This document shows positions 49,367 to 58,742 of a DNA stretch of 64,000 nt, piece by piece. The stretch is from positions 310,001 to 374,000 of the forward strand of contig NZ_OBQI01000005.1 of the NCBI RefSeq assembly GCF_900221005.1, given 5' to 3'. Numbering within the stretch: the first letter of the stretch is position 1; every line of letters starts with the position of its first letter. The position numbers were made by a program, and so were the translations under genes. This stretch comes from Blastococcus aggregatus. Lineage in GTDB: Bacteria > Actinomycetota > Actinomycetes > Mycobacteriales > Geodermatophilaceae. The notes below the pieces were generated by a model. It did no database searches and was not told where the DNA came from. It saw only the letters and a list, made by a program, of their open reading frames with translations.

Positions 49367-50022
49367 GCGAGCTGCAGGTGATCCGGGCAGGCGTCGTCCC
49401 GTACGAGCAGGCCTGGGAGATGCAGCGCGAGCTGCACGCGCGGCGGGTGGCCGGCGACGGCCCCGACACCCTGCTGCTGCTCGAGCACCCGTCGGTCTAC
49501 ACCGCGGGCAAGCGCACCGAGGCCTCCGAGCGGCCGGTGGACGGCACCCCCGTGGTGGACGTCGACCGCGGCGGGAAGATCACCTGGCACGGACCGGGCC
49601 AGCTGGTCGGCTACCCGATCGTCGCGCTGTCCGACCCCGTCGACGTCGTCGCCTACGTGCGGCGGCTCGAGGGCGCGCTCATCGACGTCTGCGCCGGACT
49701 GGGCGTGACCGCCGGCCGGGTCGAGGGCCGCAGCGGCGTCTGGCTGCCCGCCGACGAGCCGGGGTCCGGCTTCCGGCCCGAACGGAAGGTCGCGGCGATC
49801 GGCATCCGCGTCGCCCGCGGCGTCACGATGCACGGTTTCGCGCTCAACTGCGATCCCGACCTCGGCGCGTTCGGCGCGATCGTGCCCTGCGGCATCCCGG
49901 ACGCCGGAGTCACCTCGCTCGCGGCCGAGCTCGGCCGCGACGTCCCGGTGGCCGAGGCGATCGACCCGGTCGAGGCAGCGATGCGGGCCGTGCTGGCCGG
50001 CGTGCCCGCGTCCGCCGCCTGA
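49363..50022 (+). CDS. lipB: Octanoyl-(acyl carrier protein):protein N-octanoyltransferase
   Basis: The 219-residue protein has [18 protein letters not shown], the LipB signature, the catalytic Lys in RKVAAIGIR and the Cys in IVPCGI. It moves octanoyl groups from ACP onto lipoyl domains of E2 (the dlaT product here) and GcvH; LipA then adds sulfur. It starts with GTG overlapping the oxidoreductase stop. In M. tuberculosis lipB and lipA are adjacent; here about 8.8 kb of other genes lie between them. Confidence 0.93.
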
Positions 50023-50031
50023 CCTGCCCGG

Positions 50032-51063
50032 TCACGCCGCCGGGCCCCCCGCGGGCAGCCGCGTGGACCACGTGGACAGCTGCCCGGCCGGCTCGAACCC
50101 GAGTGCGGTGTTGACCGCCACCATCGGGGCGTTGCCCTCCAGGTTGTAGGTGGTGATCCGCCGCGTCTGCGGGAACGCCGCCGCCAGGTCGCGGAGCGCC
50201 GCCGCCTTGACCAGCGCACCCAGCCGGTGGCCCCGGTGCTCGTGCAGCACCAGCGTCGCGCCCTGGCGCGCGTGCTCGGCCCGGGCCAGCGACACGTGCA
50301 GGTCGGTGAAGGCGATCAGCCGCCCGTTCCGCACCGCGCCGGCGGAGAGCACCGTCCGGCCGCGAGCCACGTTGAGGTCCTCGACCTCGCGGATCCGGTC
50401 GACGTCCCAGCGCTCGGCCTCCACCGGCATGTCCCCGTGCGGGGCGTCGGTGCTCATCCGCTCCTCCAGGAGCGCGCGGTCGGCCACGAGGGCGTCCGGC
50501 GTCCGGTCCCGCCAGGTGACCAGGTCGTAGCCGCGCGATGCCCACCGCGCCTCCGCCTCGACGGCGGCCAGGCGGGCCTCGTCGGCCGGGAGGACCAGGT
50601 CGCGGCGGGTCTCCAGCAGGTCGCACGCCCAGCCGGAGCGCAGCGCGAACCGGCGTCCGGCGCCGTCCGGGCCCGGCTCGTCGACCTCGGAGATCAGCTC
50701 GGTCCGCCCCGCGGCCGCGGCCAGCGCCCGTGCCTCGGCCAGGAGGGCGGTACCGATCCCCCGCCGACGGTGCGCCGGGTGCACGGCGAGGTCGACGAAC
50801 GTCACCGTGGTGTTGTCCCGCAGGGGGTGGATCAGCCGCAGCGCGCCGACGACGTCGTCCCCGAGCACGGCGGCGCGGTGCGTGCCGTCGCGCGAGCTCC
50901 CCGGTTCGAGCAGCTGCCGGCCGAGGACGACGTGCTCGGCGGTCGGGCGCGGCGCCTCGTCCGGCCGGTCGGCGAGCTCGGCGGCGGCCCAGACGTCGCA
51001 CCAGGGCGCGAAGGCGTCGTCGTCAGGGCCGAGCTCGAGCAGCCGGAGCGCGGTGGTCGTCAC
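50032..51063 (-). CDS. Tandem GNAT acetyltransferase
   Basis: The 343-residue protein carries two GNAT domains. The first has the acetyl-CoA loop VHPAHRRRGIGTALL (about 96-110); the second has HEHRGHRLGALVKAAAL (about 273-290) and ends in a TYNLEGNAPMVAVNTALGF motif. Such double-GNAT proteins include mycothiol synthase and other actinobacterial acetyltransferases. The order and length are similar to MshD but the sequence does not let me assign it. GTG start 51063 is 6 nt after TAGAAC. It may be cotranscribed with leuS, which ends 32 bp upstream of it on the same strand. Confidence 0.82.
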   Translation of the reverse strand: MTTTALRLLELGPDDDAFAPWCDVWAAAELADRPDEAPRPTAEHVVLGRQLLEPGSSRDGTHRAAVLGDDVVGALRLIHPLRDNTTVTFVDLAVHPAHRRRGIGTALLAEARALAAAAGRTELISEVDEPGPDGAGRRFALRSGWACDLLETRRDLVLPADEARLAAVEAEARWASRGYDLVTWRDRTPDALVADRALLEERMSTDAPHGDMPVEAERWDVDRIREVEDLNVARGRTVLSAGAVRNGRLIAFTDLHVSLARAEHARQGATLVLHEHRGHRLGALVKAAALRDLAAAFPQTRRITTYNLEGNAPMVAVNTALGFEPAGQLSTWSTRLPAGGPAA

Positions 51064-51095
51064 CCGTCCGTTCTACCGCCGGACGCAACGGCTTT

Positions 51096-54011
51096 TCAGG
51101 CCACCACGAAGTTGACCAGCCGGCCCGGGACGGCGATCACGCGGCGGATCGTCGCGCCGTCCAGGTAGCCGGCGACCTTGTCGTCGGCGCGGGCGGCGGC
51201 CTCGAGCGCAGCGGCGTCGGCGTCGGCCGGCACGGTGACCTGCGAGCGGACCTTGCCGTTGACCTGCACCGCGACCTGCACGGTGTCCTCGACCAGCCAG
51301 CGTGGATCCGCGGTCGGGAACGGGGCCCAGGCCACCGACCCCTCGCCGCCGAGCCGCGACCACAGCTCCTCGCCCAGGTGCGGGGCGAGCGGCGCCACCA
51401 GCAGCACCAGCTGCTCGGCCACCGCCCGCGGCACCGGCGACGACGCGCCGTAGGCCTGGGTCAGGTGGTTGGTCAGCTCGGTGATCCGCGCGATGGCGAT
51501 GTTGAACCGCAGGGTCGTGTAGCCGTCGCGGACGCCGTCGATGGCCTGGTGCAGAGCACGCAGGGTCGACTCGGCGGGCTCGACGTCGTCGGCCGCGCGG
51601 ACCGCACCGGTCTGCTCGTCGACGACGACCCGCCAGATCCGCTGCAGCAGCCGCTGGGAGCCGACGACGGCCTTGGTCTCCCAGGGCCGGGACTGCTCGA
51701 GCGGACCGGTCGACATCTCGTACACGCGGAAGGTGTCGGCCCCGTAGGCGCCGATCATCTCGTCCGGCGTGACCATGTTCTTGAGGCTCTTGCCGATCTT
51801 CCCGTACTCGCGGTTGACCGGCTTGCCCTCGTAGAGGAACCGGCCGTCCTTCTCGACGACCTCGGCGGCGGGCACGTAGAAGCCCCGCTCGTCGGTGTAG
51901 GCGTAGGCCGAGATGTAGCCCTGGTTGACCAGCCGGCGGAACGGCTCCTCGCTGGACACGTGGCCCAGGTCGTGCAGGACCTTGTGCCAGAAGCGGGCGT
52001 AGAGCAGGTGCAGCACCGCGTGCTCGACGCCGCCGACGTACAGGTCCACGCCACCGGTGTCGCCGTCGTGACGCGGGCCCATCCAGTAGCGCTCGAGCTC
52101 GGGGTCGACCATCCGCTCGTCGTCGCCCGGGTCCAGGTAGCGCAGGTAGTACCAGCACGACCCGGCCCAGTTGGGCATCGTGTTGGTCTCGCGGCGGTAC
52201 TCCTTCGGCCCGTCGCCCAGGTCGAGGGTGACCGTCGTCCACTCGGTGGCGCGGGACAGCGGCGGCTCGGGCGCGGAGTCGGCGTCGTCGTCGGCGAAGG
52301 TCTTGGGCGAGTAGTCGTCGACCTCGGGCAGCAGCACCGGCAGCATCGAGGTCGGGACGGCGACCGGGCGGTCGTCCTCGTCGTAGACGATCGGGAACGG
52401 CTCGCCCCAGTAGCGCTGCCGGCTGAACAGCCAGTCGCGCAGCTTGTAGGTGGTCGTCGCCTCGCCGGCGCCCCGCTCGACCAGCCACGCGGTGATCCGC
52501 GCAATCGCCTCGGCCTTCTCCAGGCCGTCCAGCGAGATCTCGTCGTTCGCCGAGTTGATCATCCGGCCGGAGCCGGTCCAGGCGCCGCCCTCGAAGTCGG
52601 CCGGCGGCTGCACCGTGCGGACGACGGGCAGCCCGAAGGCCTCGGCGAACTCGAAGTCACGGGTGTCCTCGCCGGGCACCGCCATGATCGCGCCGGTGCC
52701 GTAGCCGGTGAGCACGTAGTCGGCGATGAACACCGGCAGCTCGCGGCCGTTCACCGGGTTGACCGCCGTGACGCCCAGCCAGACGCCGGTCTTCTCGCGG
52801 CCGGCGTCCTGGCGGTCCAGCTCCGAGCGGCGGGAGGCCTGCCGCTGGTACTCGCGCACGGCCTCGGCCGGGGTGGCCGCGCCGCCGGTCCAGCGCGGGT
52901 CGGCGCCGTCGGGCCACGCGTCGGCGGTCAGCGCGCCGACCAGCGGGTGCTCCGGAGCCAGGACGACGTAGGTCGCGCCGAACAGGGTGTCCGGCCGGGT
53001 CGTGAAGACCTCGATCGCCTCGGAAGCTCCGGCTGTCCCGCCCCCCGCCCCGACGGCGAACCGGACCTTCGCACCGGTCGACCGGCCGATCCAGTTGCGC
53101 TGCATGTGCTTGAGGGAGTCCGACCAGTCCAGCCGGTCCAGGTCGGCGAGCAGCCGGTCGGCGTAGGCGGTGATCCGCATCATCCACTGCTTGAGCGGGC
53201 GCCGGAACACCGGGAAGTTGCCCCGCTCGGAGCGCCCGTCGGCGGTGACCTCCTCGTTGGAGAGCACCGTGCCCAGGCCGGGGCACCAGTTCACCGGCGC
53301 CTCGTTCAGGTAGGCCAGCCGGTGCCCGTCGACGACGGCCTTCTTCTCGCGGTCGGCCAGCTCCGCCCAGGGCCGGCCCGTGGGGTTGGCGCCGGCGGCC
53401 GGCTCGCGGGTGCCGGCGTCCAGCTCGGCGACCAGCTCATCGATCGGGCGGGCCTTGTTCGCGTCCTCGTCGAACCAGGAACCGAAGATCTGCAGGAAGA
53501 TCCACTGGGTCCACTTGTAGTAGCCCGGGTCGATCGTGGCGAAGGTGCGCCGCTGGTCGTGGTCGACGCCCAGCCGCCGCAGCTGCGTGCTGATCGCGGC
53601 GATGTTGGCCTCGGTGGTCACCCGGGGGTGCTGCCCGGTCTGGACGGCGAACTGCTCGGCGGGCAGGCCGAACGCGTCGTAGCCCATGGGGTGCAGCACG
53701 TTGTCGCCGTCCATGCGGCGGAACCGGCTGGTGACGTCCGTGCCCAGGTAGCCCAGCGGGTGCCCGACGTGCAGGCCGGCACCCGAGGGGTACGGGAACA
53801 TGTCCATCGCGAAGAACTTCGGCCGGTCGGCGACCCGCTCGAAGCCCGCGCTCAGCCGCCCGGTCGGGTTGGGCGTGTTCGTGGTGCCCTCGGCCTCCCA
53901 GCGGTCCTGCCAGGAGAGCTCGATCTGCTGGGCCAGCGCGGGCGTGTAGCGGTGCGGGGGTAGGTCACCCGCTGCCTGCTCGACGCTGGGCTGGTCGGCC
54001 GTCTGGCTCAT
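51096..54011 (-). CDS. leuS: Leucyl-tRNA synthetase
   Basis: The 971-residue class I synthetase has the HIGH motif HVGH (81-84 in [16 protein letters not shown]), a large editing domain with [12 protein letters not shown]-type motif and [16 protein letters not shown], and the KMSKS-like loop KIGKSLKNM. It charges tRNA-Leu and edits mischarged products. ATG 54011 is preceded by GGGAG. Upstream, a short Leu-rich leader peptide and a U-tract terminator strongly suggest attenuation by leucyl-tRNA supply. Confidence 0.95.
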
Positions 54012-54050
54012 CGTTCGTGCTCCCGGGGACTGGTACCGGCGGCGGACATC

Positions 54051-54075
54051 AAAAAACCCCTCACGCAGGAGGGGT
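54051..54075 (-). terminator. Intrinsic terminator (attenuator) in the leuS leader
   Basis: On the minus strand ACCCCTC (54075-54069), a 6-base loop, and GAGGGGT (54062-54056) form a stem directly followed by TTTTTT (54056-54051). It lies between the leader peptide and leuS, 40 bases before the leuS ATG. It is the only hairpin in the window that I found with a clean U-tract, so transcription would be expected to stop before leuS unless antiterminated. Confidence 0.85.
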
Positions 54076-54076
54076 C

Positions 54077-54111
54077 GCCGTGCTGACAGGAGGTCTGGAG
54101 GTCAACACGGC
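54077..54111 (-). promoter_or_regulatory. Hairpin overlapping the leader peptide stop codon (leuS leader)
   Basis: On the minus strand GCCGTGTTGAC (54111-54101) pairs with GTCAGCACGGC (54087-54077): 11 bp with one G-U. The left arm contains the end of the leader peptide and its stop codon, so a ribosome there would open the stem. It is adjacent to the terminator stem rather than overlapping it, so the exact switch is not resolved. Confidence 0.6.
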
Positions 54112-54137
54112 CTGGCAAGCAGGAGCCGCCTGGTCAC
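54102..54137 (-). CDS. Leader peptide of leuS with three consecutive leucine codons
   Basis: GTG 54137 opens an 11-residue frame, VTRRLLLARPC, ending at TGA 54102. Codons 5-7 are CTC, CTG, CTT. A CGGGAG sequence lies 12 nt upstream of the GTG, a long but usable spacing. Leu codons, a hairpin over the stop, and a U-tract terminator before leuS are the pieces of ribosome-mediated attenuation, as known for the leuA leader in Streptomyces. Low charged tRNA-Leu would stall ribosomes and favour readthrough. A short MHA reading frame (ATG 54143) overlaps and looks accidental. Confidence 0.7.
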   Translation of the reverse strand: MTRRLLLARPC

Positions 54138-54281
54138 GCGTGCATGGTACTCCCGCGGTCCCGGAGCTCCGGCGTCCCCGCCGGTGGGCGCGGCTCCCCC
54201 TTCCGGGTCGCACCGTCCGCCGGGGAGGTGCAGCCGGCCCGGAGACGGGTCGATGCCCTCGGGGTGGAGCGGACGACGCGA

Positions 54282-56570
54282 GTGACGGTCCCGCACCGCC
54301 GCCTGCCCCGGCCGGGTCCGGTGGCCCTCCTCCCCGCTGCGCTCGTCCTGGCCTACGCCGGCAGCCTCCTGGTGCGGCCCACCGGTGCGGGCTGGGACCT
54401 GGTCGCCGACACACTGCTGCGCAACGCGGTCTACCTCCCGGCGGCCGCCTTCTCCTGGGCGGCCGCGCGACGGGTCCCGCGGGAGCGGCTGCCCTGGCGG
54501 GCGCTGGCCGTCTGCCTGGGTATCAGCGCCCTGGCCAACTCGGGCCGGACGTTCACCGCCCGCACCGACCTCCTCGGCCCCTGGGGGGTGACCGTCGTGG
54601 ACGGCCTGGCCCTGGTCTCCTACCTGACGCTGTGGGTCACGCTGCTCGGGCTCGTCCGGGCGCGGGTCCCCCGCTTCCACCCGAGCATGTGGCTGGACGG
54701 CCTGATCGGAGCGCTGGGCACCACCGCGGTCGGGCTCGCCTTCCTCCTCGGGCCGCACCTCACCGCGTCCGACGGCAGCGAGCCGCTGCCCCTCGTGCAG
54801 CTCGTACTGCCGGCCACCGATGTCCTGCTGTTCGCGCTGCTGATCGCGATCGGATCGGTCCTCGGCCTGCGGCTGGACCCGACGGTGGTCCTCATGACGG
54901 CGTCGCTGGGCTGCGTCCTGGTCGGCGACCTCGTGCTGTTCGCCCGCACGCCGGCCGGCGCCCAGGTCGGGGACGGCTGGCCGGACCTGGCGTGGCTGGC
55001 CGGCATCGTGCTGGCCGCCACCGCGGCCCGGCGGGCCATCCCGCGGCCGGCGCCGCGCGAGGACCCCGACGGCTCTCGCGCCCGCCTCGGCTGGCAGCTG
55101 CTCGTCCTGCCCCTCGGCGCCACCGTGGGCGGGCTCGTCGTCCTCGCGATCGGGTGGGGCACCGACCTGCCGGTCGCCGCCGCGTGGCTGGCGACCGGGA
55201 CCGTGGTGGCCGCGCTCGCGCGCACCGCCCTGACCCTCCGGGAGGTCAGGTCCTTCGACGAGGTCCGGCAGGAGGCCCGCACCGACGAGCTCACCGGCCT
55301 GCCCAACCGCCGGGCGCTGCTCGAGGTGGCCGAACGGACGCTGGCGGCCGCCACGGCCGGGCGACCGGCCGCCCTGTTGCTGCTGGACCTCGACGGGTTC
55401 AAAGAGGTCAACGACAGCCTCGGTCACGGTGCCGGGGACGAGCTGCTGCGCCGGATCGGTGCCCGCCTGCTCCCTGCCCTGGCACCCGGCGAGACGCTCG
55501 CCCGGCTCGGCGGCGACGAGTTCGCCGTCCTGCTCCCCGATGCCGCCCTGGAGCGTGCGCAGGAGCGGGCCGAGCAACTCCGCGCCCAGATCCTGCGCCC
55601 GTTCCGGATCGAGGGCATCCGGCTGCACGTCGGCGTCAGCGTCGGCATCGCGACCGCGCCCGTCCCCGCGGCCACCGTCCAGGAGCTCCTGCGCTGCGCC
55701 GACATCGCCATGTACGCGGCGAAGCGGGCCGGCACCGGGGTGCACGTCCACGTCCCGGATCCGCTCAGCGGCACGGGCGACCGGTTGCGCACCATGGAGG
55801 AGCTGCGGACGGCGATCGAGGGCGACGAGCTGGTCATCCACCTGCAGCCCCAGGTCTCCTTCGCCGACGGCACCACCGTGGGCGCGGAGGCGCTGGTCCG
55901 CTGGCAGCACCCGACGCGGGGGCTCCTCGCCCCGGCGGCGTTCCTCCCCGCCGCGGAGCAGGCCGGTCTGCTCCGCCCGCTCACCGACCAGGTGCTGCGG
56001 CTGGCCCTCGCCGCGACCGCCCGCTGGTGGCCCGAGCACGCCGTCCCGGTGTCGGTGAACCTCTCCGCCGCCAACGTCACCGACCTGGACCTGCCTGCCA
56101 CGGTGACCGCGGCCCTGGCGCGGCACGGCCTGCCGGCCGGCGCCCTGACCCTCGAGCTGGTCGAGGACACGCTCATGGCCGATCCGGACCGCGGCCGAGT
56201 GGTGCTGTCCGAGCTGCGCACCCTGGGGGTGCGCACCTCGATCGACGACTACGGCACGGGGTACAGCTCCCTGGCCTACCTGCGGCACCTGCCTGCCGAC
56301 GAGCTCAAGCTCGACCGCAGCCTCACCAGCGACGTCGCCGACGACCCCCGTGCCGCCGCGATCGTCGAGCACACCGTCGCCCTCGCCCACGCCCTCGGGC
56401 TGCGGCTCGTGGCCGAGGGGGTCGAGGACGAGCGCACCGCTGACGTGCTGCGAGCCCTGCGCTGCGACATCGCCCAGGGGTACGGCATCGCCCGGCCGAT
56501 GCCGGTGCCGGACTTCCTCACCTGGCTCGCGGCGCGCCGGGCGTCCCGGGCGGCGCGAGCGCACGTCTGA
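54282..56570 (+). CDS. Membrane GGDEF-EAL protein (cyclic di-GMP synthesis/breakdown)
   Basis: The 762-residue protein has eight or nine N-terminal membrane helices (about 15-310), then a GGDEF domain with an intact GGDEF motif at 410-414, and an EAL domain with EAL at 536-538. The EAL catalytic set looks complete: NLS, ELVED, DDYGTGYSS, KLDRSL, AEGVED and QGYG. Both activities are therefore possible, and no RxxD inhibitory site is obvious ahead of GGDEF. I start at GTG 54282, with a nearby GGAG; GTG 54264 is an alternative. It is divergent from the leuS leader, 144 bp away. The ligand of the membrane part is unknown. Confidence 0.88.
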   Translation: MTVPHRRLPRPGPVALLPAALVLAYAGSLLVRPTGAGWDLVADTLLRNAVYLPAAAFSWAAARRVPRERLPWRALAVCLGISALANSGRTFTARTDLLGPWGVTVVDGLALVSYLTLWVTLLGLVRARVPRFHPSMWLDGLIGALGTTAVGLAFLLGPHLTASDGSEPLPLVQLVLPATDVLLFALLIAIGSVLGLRLDPTVVLMTASLGCVLVGDLVLFARTPAGAQVGDGWPDLAWLAGIVLAATAARRAIPRPAPREDPDGSRARLGWQLLVLPLGATVGGLVVLAIGWGTDLPVAAAWLATGTVVAALARTALTLREVRSFDEVRQEARTDELTGLPNRRALLEVAERTLAAATAGRPAALLLLDLDGFKEVNDSLGHGAGDELLRRIGARLLPALAPGETLARLGGDEFAVLLPDAALERAQERAEQLRAQILRPFRIEGIRLHVGVSVGIATAPVPAATVQELLRCADIAMYAAKRAGTGVHVHVPDPLSGTGDRLRTMEELRTAIEGDELVIHLQPQVSFADGTTVGAEALVRWQHPTRGLLAPAAFLPAAEQAGLLRPLTDQVLRLALAATARWWPEHAVPVSVNLSAANVTDLDLPATVTAALARHGLPAGALTLELVEDTLMADPDRGRVVLSELRTLGVRTSIDDYGTGYSSLAYLRHLPADELKLDRSLTSDVADDPRAAAIVEHTVALAHALGLRLVAEGVEDERTADVLRALRCDIAQGYGIARPMPVPDFLTWLAARRASRAARAHV

Positions 56571-56579
56571 ACCGGCCGC

Positions 56580-57509
56580 TCAGCCCAGCTGCGGCGCCAC
56601 CTCGCCCGCCACCAGGTCCAGGTGGTCGAGGTCGGAGAGGTCCAGCACCTGCAGGTACACCCGCTGAGCACCCGCCTCGGCGTAGCGGCCCAGGATGTCG
56701 ACCGCCTCGGCGGGCGTCCCGGCGACGCCGTGCGCTCGCAGCTCGTCGACGTCCCGGCCGATGGCGGCCGCGCGGCGGGCGAGCTCGGCGTCGTCCCTGC
56801 CCACGCACAGCACCAGCGCCGAGCTGTAGACGAGGGACGACGGGTCGCGGCCGGCCTCGTCGCACGCCGCGCGGACCCCGGCGAACAGCCGCGCGTTGTC
56901 CTCCGCGGACATGAACGGCACGTTGAACTCCGCGGCGTACCGGGCAGCCAGCCGAGGCGTGCGCTTCTTCCCCCCGCCGCCGACGAGGAGGGGGATGCCG
57001 CCGGCCTGCACGGGCTTGGGCAGCGCCGGCGAGTCCGTCAACCGGTAGTGCTCGCCGACGAAGTCGAAGGTCTCCCCCGGCGGCGTGCTCCACAGCCCGC
57101 TGATGATCGCCAGCTGCTCCTCGTACCGGTCGAACCGCTCCCCCAGCGACGGGAACGGGATGCCGTAGGCGGTGTGCTCCTTCTCGAACCAGCCCGAGCC
57201 GATGCCGAGCTCGACGCGTCCGCCGCTCATCTGGTCGACCTGGGCGACGGAGATCGCCAGCGGGCCGGGCAGCCGGAACGTGCCCGCCGTCATGAGCGTG
57301 CCGAGCCGGATGCGGCTGGTCTCCCGCGCCAGGCCGGCGAGGGTGAGCCAGGCGTCGGTCGGGCCGGGAAGGCCGTCGCCGCCCATGGTCAGGTAGTGGT
57401 CGGACCGGAAGAAGGCGTCGAAGCCGGTCTCCTCGGTGCGCCGGGCCACGGCGAGCAGGTCGTCGTAGGTGGCGCCCATCTGCGGTTCGGTGAAGATGCG
57501 GAGTTGCAC
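56580..57509 (-). CDS. LLM-class (F420-dependent type) oxidoreductase
   Basis: The 309-residue protein is a luciferase-like TIM barrel: LAVARRTEETGFDAFFRSDHYL, RIRLGTLMT, VDQMSGGRVELGIGSGWFEKEHTAYGIPFP, and GIPLLVGGGGKKRTP. The GxGWFxxEH element is typical of F420-dependent members common in actinobacteria. The substrate is unknown. GTG 57509 lies 6 nt after TAGCGT. It ends 10 bp from the convergent GGDEF-EAL gene. Confidence 0.87.
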   Translation of the reverse strand: MQLRIFTEPQMGATYDDLLAVARRTEETGFDAFFRSDHYLTMGGDGLPGPTDAWLTLAGLARETSRIRLGTLMTAGTFRLPGPLAISVAQVDQMSGGRVELGIGSGWFEKEHTAYGIPFPSLGERFDRYEEQLAIISGLWSTPPGETFDFVGEHYRLTDSPALPKPVQAGGIPLLVGGGGKKRTPRLAARYAAEFNVPFMSAEDNARLFAGVRAACDEAGRDPSSLVYSSALVLCVGRDDAELARRAAAIGRDVDELRAHGVAGTPAEAVDILGRYAEAGAQRVYLQVLDLSDLDHLDLVAGEVAPQLG

Positions 57510-57515
57510 GATGCG

Positions 57516-57521
57516 ACGCTA
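57516..57521 (-). promoter_or_regulatory. Candidate -10 box (TAGCGT) of a leaderless oxidoreductase transcript
   Basis: TAGCGT on the minus strand ends exactly 6 nt before GTG 57509. Confidence 0.5.
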
Positions 57522-57551
57522 GCCACACCGGAGCCGCTGCGCCCTCCGGCC

Positions 57552-57557
57552 TAGGGT
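57552..57557 (+). promoter_or_regulatory. Candidate -10 box (TAGGGT) upstream of the helical membrane protein
   Basis: TAGGGT ends 6 nt before GTG 57564. Either GTG 57564 is a leaderless start or the mRNA begins there and translation starts at GTG 57624 behind GGAGG. Confidence 0.5.
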
Positions 57558-57623
57558 GAGGGTGTGCTCAGCCGCCCGACCGGGCAGGATGATCGCCAAG
57601 CGATCAATTCGGAGGTGCAGCTC

Positions 57624-58742
57624 GTGTTCCGCAAGAAGACGCGCGGTCAGGTCATCGGCGCCGAACTGCAGGAGGGCTTCACCCACCTCGGGGTGGCGGC
57701 CACCCAGGCAGGTCGGTACGCCGCAGAGCAGATGAGCCCCCGGGTGGCGGCGGCCCGCGAGGCAGCCACACCCGCATACGAGGCGGCCCGTGAGGCCGTC
57801 GCCCCCAAGGTGGCAGCCGCGGTCGCCGCCGCGGCTCCGGCCGTGGCGAGCGCCCGCGACAGCATCGCGCCGAAGGTGGAGGCCGCCCAGGCGGCCGCCG
57901 CGAAGGCAGCGGCCGACCTGGCGCCCCGCGTGGAGGCGGCCCGCGACGCGGCCGCACCCCGGGTCGCCTCGGCGGTGAGCGCCGCCCAGCTGGCGGCGGC
58001 CCGCGCCGCCGCCGACCTCGGCCCCCGGGTCGAGGCGGCGCAGAAGTCGCTCAAGGACGACGTCGTCCCGCGGCTCGAGGCCGCCCAGGTGGCCGCGCTC
58101 GCGTACGCCACCCCCCGGGTGGCCGCCGCCCGCGGCGCCGTGGCGCCCGCCCTGGAGAGCGCTCGCGAGACGCTGGCTGCCGGTGTCGACAGCGCCCGCA
58201 GCGAGCTCGACGCGCGGCGGGCCGAGCTCGCGGCGGCTGCCGCGGAGTCCGGCCGCAAGGCGCGCAAGGCGGCCAAGAAGGCGCGCAAGAACGCCGGGAA
58301 GAAGCACCGGGAGTTCGAGAAGGCGGCGGTGGCCACGGTCGCGACGGTCAAGCGGAAGGCCGGCGTCGAGCCGGAGCCGCGCCGTCGGTGGACGTGGGTG
58401 TTCGGCGCTCTGCTGCTGGGTACGGCGGCGTTCGTCGTCCTCCGCCGCAGGAAGACCGACGACTGGACCCCCGCGCCTGCCGGCGACGGCCCGGTGCCCA
58501 GCTACCGAGAGGACCCCGTGCCCAGCTTCCCCGAGAACTCCGACAAGACCGTCTCCACCGCCGACCAGTCCGGCGACTCCGCCCCGAACGAGTCCGACAT
58601 GGGCGTCCGGGACGCGCAGCTCGTCGAGGGAGACGGTCCGGACGGCGAGACGGTGAACGGCACGGACGCACCGCAGCCGTTCACCAGCGGTGGCAACGCC
58701 GACGAGGGCCCGACCGCCGGCCCGAAGGGCAACCCCGTCTGA
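57624..58742 (+). CDS. Alanine-rich helical-repeat membrane protein (DUF5324-like)
   Basis: The 372-residue protein is built from repeated helices of the type [11 protein letters not shown] and [11 protein letters not shown] over about residues 30-195, then a Lys-rich stretch ([17 protein letters not shown]), one membrane helix ([18 protein letters not shown]) and an acidic tail of about 110 residues. The repeats resemble apolipoprotein-like or LEA amphipathic helices and the Streptomyces DUF5324 proteins. It may lie along the membrane or bind the nucleoid. I chose GTG 57624, with GGAGG 8 nt upstream; GTG 57564 would be leaderless and adds 20 residues. Confidence 0.78.

Follow-up and report, generated by a model that had tools for sequence, protein, structure and literature searches.

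The leuS leader and its setting

The window, the whole 64-kb stretch of DNA analysed here, has Blastococcus as its nearest named relatives. On its minus strand lies an ORF identified as leuS by TIGR00396 (886 bits, cut-off 548.4), whose ATG at 54011 is 39 nt 3′ of a run of T that closes a compact leader (Table 1). Stem 1, of 11 bp with one G-U among them, overlaps the leader's TGA at nt 34–36, and it is abutted by a terminator of sequence CCCCTC-CTGCGT-GAGGGG (nt 64–81) with a 6-bp stem. A sequence-only reading of this DNA had claimed just this order—a VTRRLLLARPC frame with CTC-CTG-CTT at codons 5–7, an 11-bp stem over the leader stop codon, a separate terminator stem with six T residues, and then the leuS ATG—and all of it is present, the frame at 54137–54102 (minus strand); the stems are also, as that reading held, adjacent and not mutually exclusive. 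Short frames (5–25 codons) with three leucines in a row occur four times on the two strands of the window. The leuS leader is the only one of the four with a terminator within 150 nt, and it also has a −10-like hexamer. That the element is real, and beyond chance, follows from its conservation in relatives.

Table 1. Features of the leuS leader region in the window (nt 1 of the leader is position 54137)
Feature	Position	Strand	Basis or remark
Leader peptide frame GTG..TGA, VTRRLLLARPC, 11 codons	54102..54137	-	Sequence; nt 1–36
Control codons CTC CTG CTT, codons 5–7	54117..54125	-	nt 13–21
CTT, rare control codon	54119-54117	-	Starts 8 nt 5′ of stem 1 base
Stem 1 5′ arm (region 1), GCCGTGTTGAC	54101..54111	-	nt 27–37; holds stop codon; covariation
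Stem 1 3′ arm (region 2), GTCAGCACGGC	54077..54087	-	nt 51–61; covariation
Terminator 5′ arm (region 3)	54069..54074	-	Sequence and covariation
Terminator 3′ arm (region 4)	54057..54062	-	Sequence and covariation
U tract of six, T82–87	54051..54056	-	Sequence; T columns conserved in alignment A1
Candidate RNA polymerase pause site (G−10 54076, Y−1 54067, G+1 54066)	54066..54076	-	Full consensus; putative function
GGGAG, likely Shine-Dalgarno of leuS	54020..54024	-	Predicted from sequence
leuS, leucine-tRNA ligase, 971 aa	51096..54011	-	TIGR00396 leuS_bact
−10-like hexamer TACCAT, predicted promoter	54144..54149	-	Sequence; 6 nt 5′ of leader GTG

The promoter spacing is shared widely. In 152 of 158 parsed loci a TANNNT hexamer is separated from the leader start by 6 or 7 nt, a figure biased upward because the parser scored starts higher when TANNNT stood a short way 5′ of them; the gap is 8–9 nt in four, and the hexamer is absent in two (L217 and L219), both judged parser errors. 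Plain reading of the sequences also finds the position of the hexamer conserved, with GCGG-like letters preceding it. This spacing suggests that the leuS leader transcript begins at the start codon itself and is leaderless, as reported for the homologous S. lividans leader, LeuL2 (PMC8079986), with which the spacing in the window agrees. On the opposite strand, the longest frame of a divergent GGDEF-EAL gene (54144–56570, plus strand) starts atop the predicted leuS −10, so the true start of that gene is probably further in. At locus L050 a gene ending like the window's 56580–57509 adjoins leuS instead, judged by eye; from this arrangement, the GGDEF-EAL gene may be an insertion in the window's lineage.

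Conservation among relatives

Searches of the genus (23 genomes, all with LeuS) and of the family (112 genomes, 111 with LeuS) led to 111 family genomes, 23 from the genus and 88 from the rest of the family, in all of which the leuS upstream region was inspected. Two detectors were used: detector A requires a frame with at least two consecutive Leu codons and a terminator, and detector B a stem preceded by Leu-like codons, with no frame needed. The sequence-only reading had looked to related upstream regions for conserved Leu codons and a conserved terminator, and both are kept: detector A is positive in 22/23 genus and 87/88 other family loci, 109/111 in total, detector B in 23/23 and 85/88, and at least one of them in 110/111. 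Two loci run against the attenuator reading. In the genus member L012 (G003) an extra leader base makes the GTG frame miss the Leu run, with stem and terminator intact, and in the family locus L149 the run is interrupted (CTC-GAG-CTT). About 11–12 of the ~109 Leu runs are short, one genus and ten family leaders having only two Leu in a row.

Beyond the family, the order search gave a LeuS match in 101 of 121 genomes, and 35 loci were inspected from 86 genomes outside the family: detector A was positive in 23, B in 23 and either in 27, with L217 and L219 among the 27 judged false through parser errors. The class search gave a match in 63 of 148 genomes; at 49 loci outside the order, detector A was positive in 25 and B in 29, L283 being doubtful and L265 cut by a contig end. 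Both sets of counts cover genomes with a LeuS match, more distant LeuS lying outside that sample. Loci with neither detector include 3/3 of family f8, 8/8 of f32 and 5/5 of f27; positive are 10/10 loci of f33, with Streptomyces-type leaders, and 9/9 of f34, with ..GLLLLIGPR and kin. Three of nine named outgroup loci were positive (Nakamurella endophytica L087, Ornithinimicrobium sp. CNJ-824 L101 and Pseudonocardia sp. MH-G8 L106), the nine having been hand-picked, after the sequences had been viewed, from the 63 named loci that remain when those with a Geodermatophilaceae-type element, 17 of 80, are set aside. With a threshold of E ≤ 0.01, a covariance model, R1, had one or more matches in 153 of 296 class genomes and in 75 of 115 genera, counts that include the R1 training loci and in which some matches are sister elements, not leuS leaders; this breadth makes the alignment deep enough to test the workings of the switch.

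Several minor observations accompany these searches. A record titled Bacillus sp. AZ43 (UNVERIFIED_ORG; L054) carries a Geodermatophilaceae-type leuS and leader, and its name is likely wrong. Seven f2 loci (L211, L212, L215, L218, L220, L222 and L223) have, by eye, another conserved GC-rich stretch, GGTGCCCCCGCG..GCGGGGCGAGCAC, upstream of leuS, with or without the leader; Rfam searches of L211 and L222 gave no match. Looking at LeuS on plasmids was of no help.

Covariation of stem 1 and the terminator

Alignment A1 comprises 80 leaders, sampled for diversity from the 154 that passed a length filter, and omits L213, L237 and L239. In it the window leader aligns across the class with Streptomyces-type loci over leader, stem and terminator; eight loci (L248–L253, L268 and L278), five of them included in A1, encode MRAVRLLLSEPR, the S. 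lividans peptide of PMC8079986, and align with the window. Standard pairs fill 94.0% of the 1350 cells of stem 1 and the terminator, and 97.9% of cells in the terminator helix taken alone, compared with at most 49.0% in slid controls of the two stems. The compensatory changes that the sequence-only reading had thought worth seeking in both stems were found: the covariation score is 0.235 against 0.133 when shuffled, with 0/500 shuffles reaching the real value, and changes on both sides occur in 10 of 17 pairs. The clearest pair, stem 1 columns 49–99, shows U-A in 47 sequences and C-G in 32, out of the 79 with letters there, and is never unpaired.

The leader stop codon falls inside stem 1 in 144 of 158 loci. 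In L232, L285 and L293 it comes earlier, at the stem foot, and the stem is kept, from which the usual P-[C/R] end of the peptide seems to be dictated by the RNA. The parser found no stem 1 in L178 and L213, and L158, L163 and L228 are without a standard region 2.

A rare leucine codon at a fixed place

CTT accounts for 9 of the 1538 Leu codons (0.6%) in 36 ORFs of the window. It occurs, nonetheless, in 91/108 genus and family leaders and in 48/48 farther leaders, and at one fixed codon position relative to the stem in 121/156 (codon and pairing counts exclude L217 and L219). Among the Leu codons of a leader, the rare one usually comes last or last but one, and not at the start. This placement, before the stem, of a codon very rare in the window is new here. 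A review of the theory in which leaders use the codons of greatest sensitivity to limitation cautions that rarity by itself is too simple an account (PMC1183508). A CTT avoided elsewhere in the window offers a stringent way to test whether control codons are selected for sensitivity.

Ribosome position and the putative antiterminator

Folding was computed for 142 to 153 loci, depending on the state, on RNA truncated ahead of the terminator 3′ arm. A ribosome was placed at each codon in turn, and its leading edge was assumed to lie 12 nt downstream of the first nucleotide of the A-site codon. When the first Leu codon is occupied, region 2 keeps its pairing in stem 1 (group means 0.93–0.99). At CTT its pairing in stem 1 drops to 0.28–0.32 and its pairing with region 3 climbs to 0.33–0.41, and at the stop codon the mean 2:3 pairing is 0.60–0.61 in the genus and family and 0.33 in farther loci. 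Within codons 5–7, where the sequence-only reading had proposed to place a ribosome, a stall at CTT frees region 2, whereas stem 1 is undisturbed by a stall at the first Leu codon. A stall late in the run can matter for this reason, and CTT sits there. Region 2 is exposed as well while a ribosome occupies the stop codon, and the proposed sign of the response thus requires rapid release.

In the window the 2:3 pairing is worth −4.4 kcal/mol, against about −14 for the terminator. The UGC of the terminator loop can pair with region 2 over at least 4 bp in 139/153 loci, but permuted region-2/loop pairs reach the real mean in 1905/2000 cases, shuffled loops do as well as real ones in 228/500, and in an exhaustive loop null the window loop ranks only 618/4096. 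Region 2 was set against the terminator 5′ side and loop in three registers, of which the first had no covariation support and another, a bulged form, was marginal (9–10/500 shuffles on three measures). A CACG:CGUG form beat 500/500 shuffles in score and then failed on LeuS trees, which gave one arm change for 57 loci and, for 94 loci, arm changes coinciding with loop changes in 2/6, with a null of 1.3 (1967/5000). A region 2:3 antiterminator is possible on the modelled energies, without tree-aware covariation.

A candidate pause site

The pause consensus G−10Y−1G+1 (PMC9291695) is complete in the window, with Y−1 10 nt 3′ of stem 1. Among 51 unique relatives the full consensus falls within 9–13 nt of stem 1 in 26, against a shuffle mean of 12.2, and partial Y−1G+1 is present in 48 of 51 unique sequences against 37.2 expected; where the terminator has been remodelled, TGY is kept 10–14 nt after the stem in 19/27 against 3.9. 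These shuffles take no account of relatedness, and anchoring is doubtful for a few remodelled rows among the 27 (L048, L283). The pattern is no more than suggestive: UG(N)G, which is conserved in the terminator loop, may mark a polymerase pause instead of a pairing partner. The candidate consensus pause site after stem 1 is likewise new here.

Sister elements before cimA and other branched-chain genes

In the same genome, R1 also matches G000:C8:202832-202914 (minus strand; L336) at E 1.1e-4, directly before a gene identified as citramalate synthase, cimA, by TIGR00977 (570.6 bits, cut-off 450). The leader there reads MYATRTIIIV (ATC ATC ATC GTT), and it is followed by a 10-bp stem over the stop and a terminator. 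A short frame with adjacent Ile codons precedes cimA in 25 of 30 family loci (drawn from 39 genomes with a match, of 43 searched), where shuffled upstream DNA would give 0.13, and a variant Ile leader was seen by eye in four more of the 30; the same holds for 19 of 29 class loci (from 47 further genomes with a match, of 60 searched), against 0.27 expected. This isoleucine-codon sister element, in the same genome and at 44/59 cimA loci in total, is new here, and no report of an isoleucine leader attenuator before cimA was found in the literature searched. The family leaders use ATC 62 times and ATT six times among 68 Ile codons, and the class leaders ATT 30 times and ATC 14; ATT makes up 2 of 495 Ile codons in the window. 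TANNNT lies close upstream in 5/44 cimA leaders.

In other genomes, R1 matches also lead to a Leu leader, MKHLLLIESARH, before a gene whose best NCBIfam matches are to 2-isopropylmalate synthase (L380), and to leaders before acetolactate synthase, MRFSTLVLGRRVG at L382 and, by eye, MARILVLP at L381.

Proposed mechanism and its alternatives

The presence, ahead of leuS, of a leucine-codon leader with a predicted intrinsic terminator is strongly supported, and the leader very probably acts as a ribosome-mediated transcription attenuator. A control-codon frame, an intrinsic terminator and a hairpin 1:2 over the leader end are all found, in sequence and covariation. Transcription would start at the GTG itself and a ribosome would load on the leaderless start codon; hairpin 1:2 and the consensus pause site would then hold RNA polymerase back for the ribosome to draw level. 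If Leu-tRNA is plentiful, the ribosome would pass CTT and leave at the stop codon, hairpin 1:2 would re-form, terminator 3:4 would form, and leuS would stay low. When Leu-tRNA is short, the ribosome would stall once CTT occupies the A site and, with its leading edge, would cover about the first five nt of region 1; the freed region 2 would pair loosely with the terminator 5′ side and loop, so that leuS would be read.

It is possible, if rather unlikely, that the same leader and terminator work with no true antiterminator, hairpin 1:2 being a pause hairpin and the decision a kinetic one between the timing of polymerase release and the position of the ribosome. The pause-like motif after stem 1, the TGY kept in remodelled terminators and a 2:3 pairing without covariation would all fit such a scheme, and the C. 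glutamicum ilvBNC model gives pausing to its first hairpin (PMC11857589). Yet the UGC could be kept by its widespread pairing with region 2, the pause statistics carry the limits noted above, and how pausing alone would block the terminator is unclear. The folding results would even accommodate a response of reversed sign, since 2:3 pairing reaches its stop-codon values once region 2 is freed there and an early-Leu stall keeps stem 1 and the terminator; leuS would then be read when leucine is ample. This would be odd physiology for a synthetase and would sit poorly with a rare codon that is usually last or next-to-last in the run, and we regard it as improbable.

Two further readings do without an attenuator of this kind. 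The short transcript might be a small RNA, or its peptide might act in trans, the terminator not being regulatory for leuS, but nothing beyond the discrete terminated unit points that way. The 19 loci found by the RNA model alone precede leuS (8), cimA (7), ilvB (2), leuA (1) and an unnamed gene (1, L374), with 6/18 gene names assigned by NCBIfam and the others by eye or position; the control codons, moreover, fit the gene, Leu for leuS and Ile for cimA. This reading is thus very improbable. T-boxes regulate many synthetases in Firmicutes, but a T-box or other known riboswitch has next to no likelihood here: Rfam gave no family, T-box included, up to E = 1 in window positions 50000–58000. Six other loci gave two Rfam matches, both far below the gathering score.

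Relation to known attenuators

The E. coli trp, his and leu attenuators have leader codons, a 1:2 hairpin and a terminator in common with the window leader, which differs from them in its predicted leaderless start and in a hairpin 1 that begins after the control codons. The pause consensus is a further likeness (PMC9291695). The three-hairpin attenuator of C. glutamicum ilvBNC is alike in having a first hairpin assigned the role of anti-antiterminator and pause element, a putative role in the window, as well as a terminator and a CUU control codon; it differs in serving another gene and in an antiterminator supported by mutants there and only a possibility here (PMC11857589). The LEU element before leuA of Actinobacteria likewise has a leader with leucine codons, but it forms a pseudoknot, with the leuA Shine-Dalgarno taking part in the base stem, and it has no terminator, whereas the window leader does (PMC1262725).

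The attenuator interpretation as first put forward therefore stands for leader and terminator, through conservation and covariation, and falls for novelty. The sequence-only reading had taken a leuS leader attenuator to be undescribed, but leuS of S. avermitilis and of S. coelicolor was predicted in 2005 to be preceded by classical attenuators (PMC1262725), and RNA-seq of S. lividans TK24 in 2021 recovered LeuL2, a leaderless leader ahead of leuS that has three leucines and comes with a hairpin and a run of U (PMC8079986). Its narrower remark, that none had been experimentally described, holds for the response of leuS and not for the leader, which was seen by RNA-seq (PMC8079986). The portions of PMC1262725 and PMC8079986 available to us yielded no test of leuS regulation, and none in actinobacteria was found in the literature searched. 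The Streptomyces leuS attenuator, LeuL2 included, resembles the window element in its 11–12-codon leader ending LLL-x-x-P-[C/R]-stop, its hairpin and its U-run terminator before leuS. Compared with the LeuL2 type, the window leader starts with GTG, has GCCGTG for GCCGCG in stem 1, and carries a stem loop of 13 nt where that of L248 has ~33 nt and is itself folded. The leuS attenuator known from Streptomyces is now extended to Geodermatophilaceae.

On balance we favour the view that actinobacteria share, across the class, a set of attenuators for branched-chain amino acid genes, the leuS leader and an isoleucine-sensing cimA switch among them, built on one plan: control codons a few bases 5′ of a pause or anti-antiterminator hairpin that covers the stop, an abutting terminator and, often, an avoided U-ending codon, which is CTT for leuS and ATT for many of the cimA leaders found beyond the family. 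Because the family cimA leaders use the common ATC, and few cimA leaders have TANNNT close upstream, the rare codon and the leaderless start are not general in the set. The cimA sister element suggests leader-peptide control of isoleucine made via citramalate. An Ile leader (..MFTPRIII) with stem and terminator also stands before a gene without an assigned name (L374, G313).
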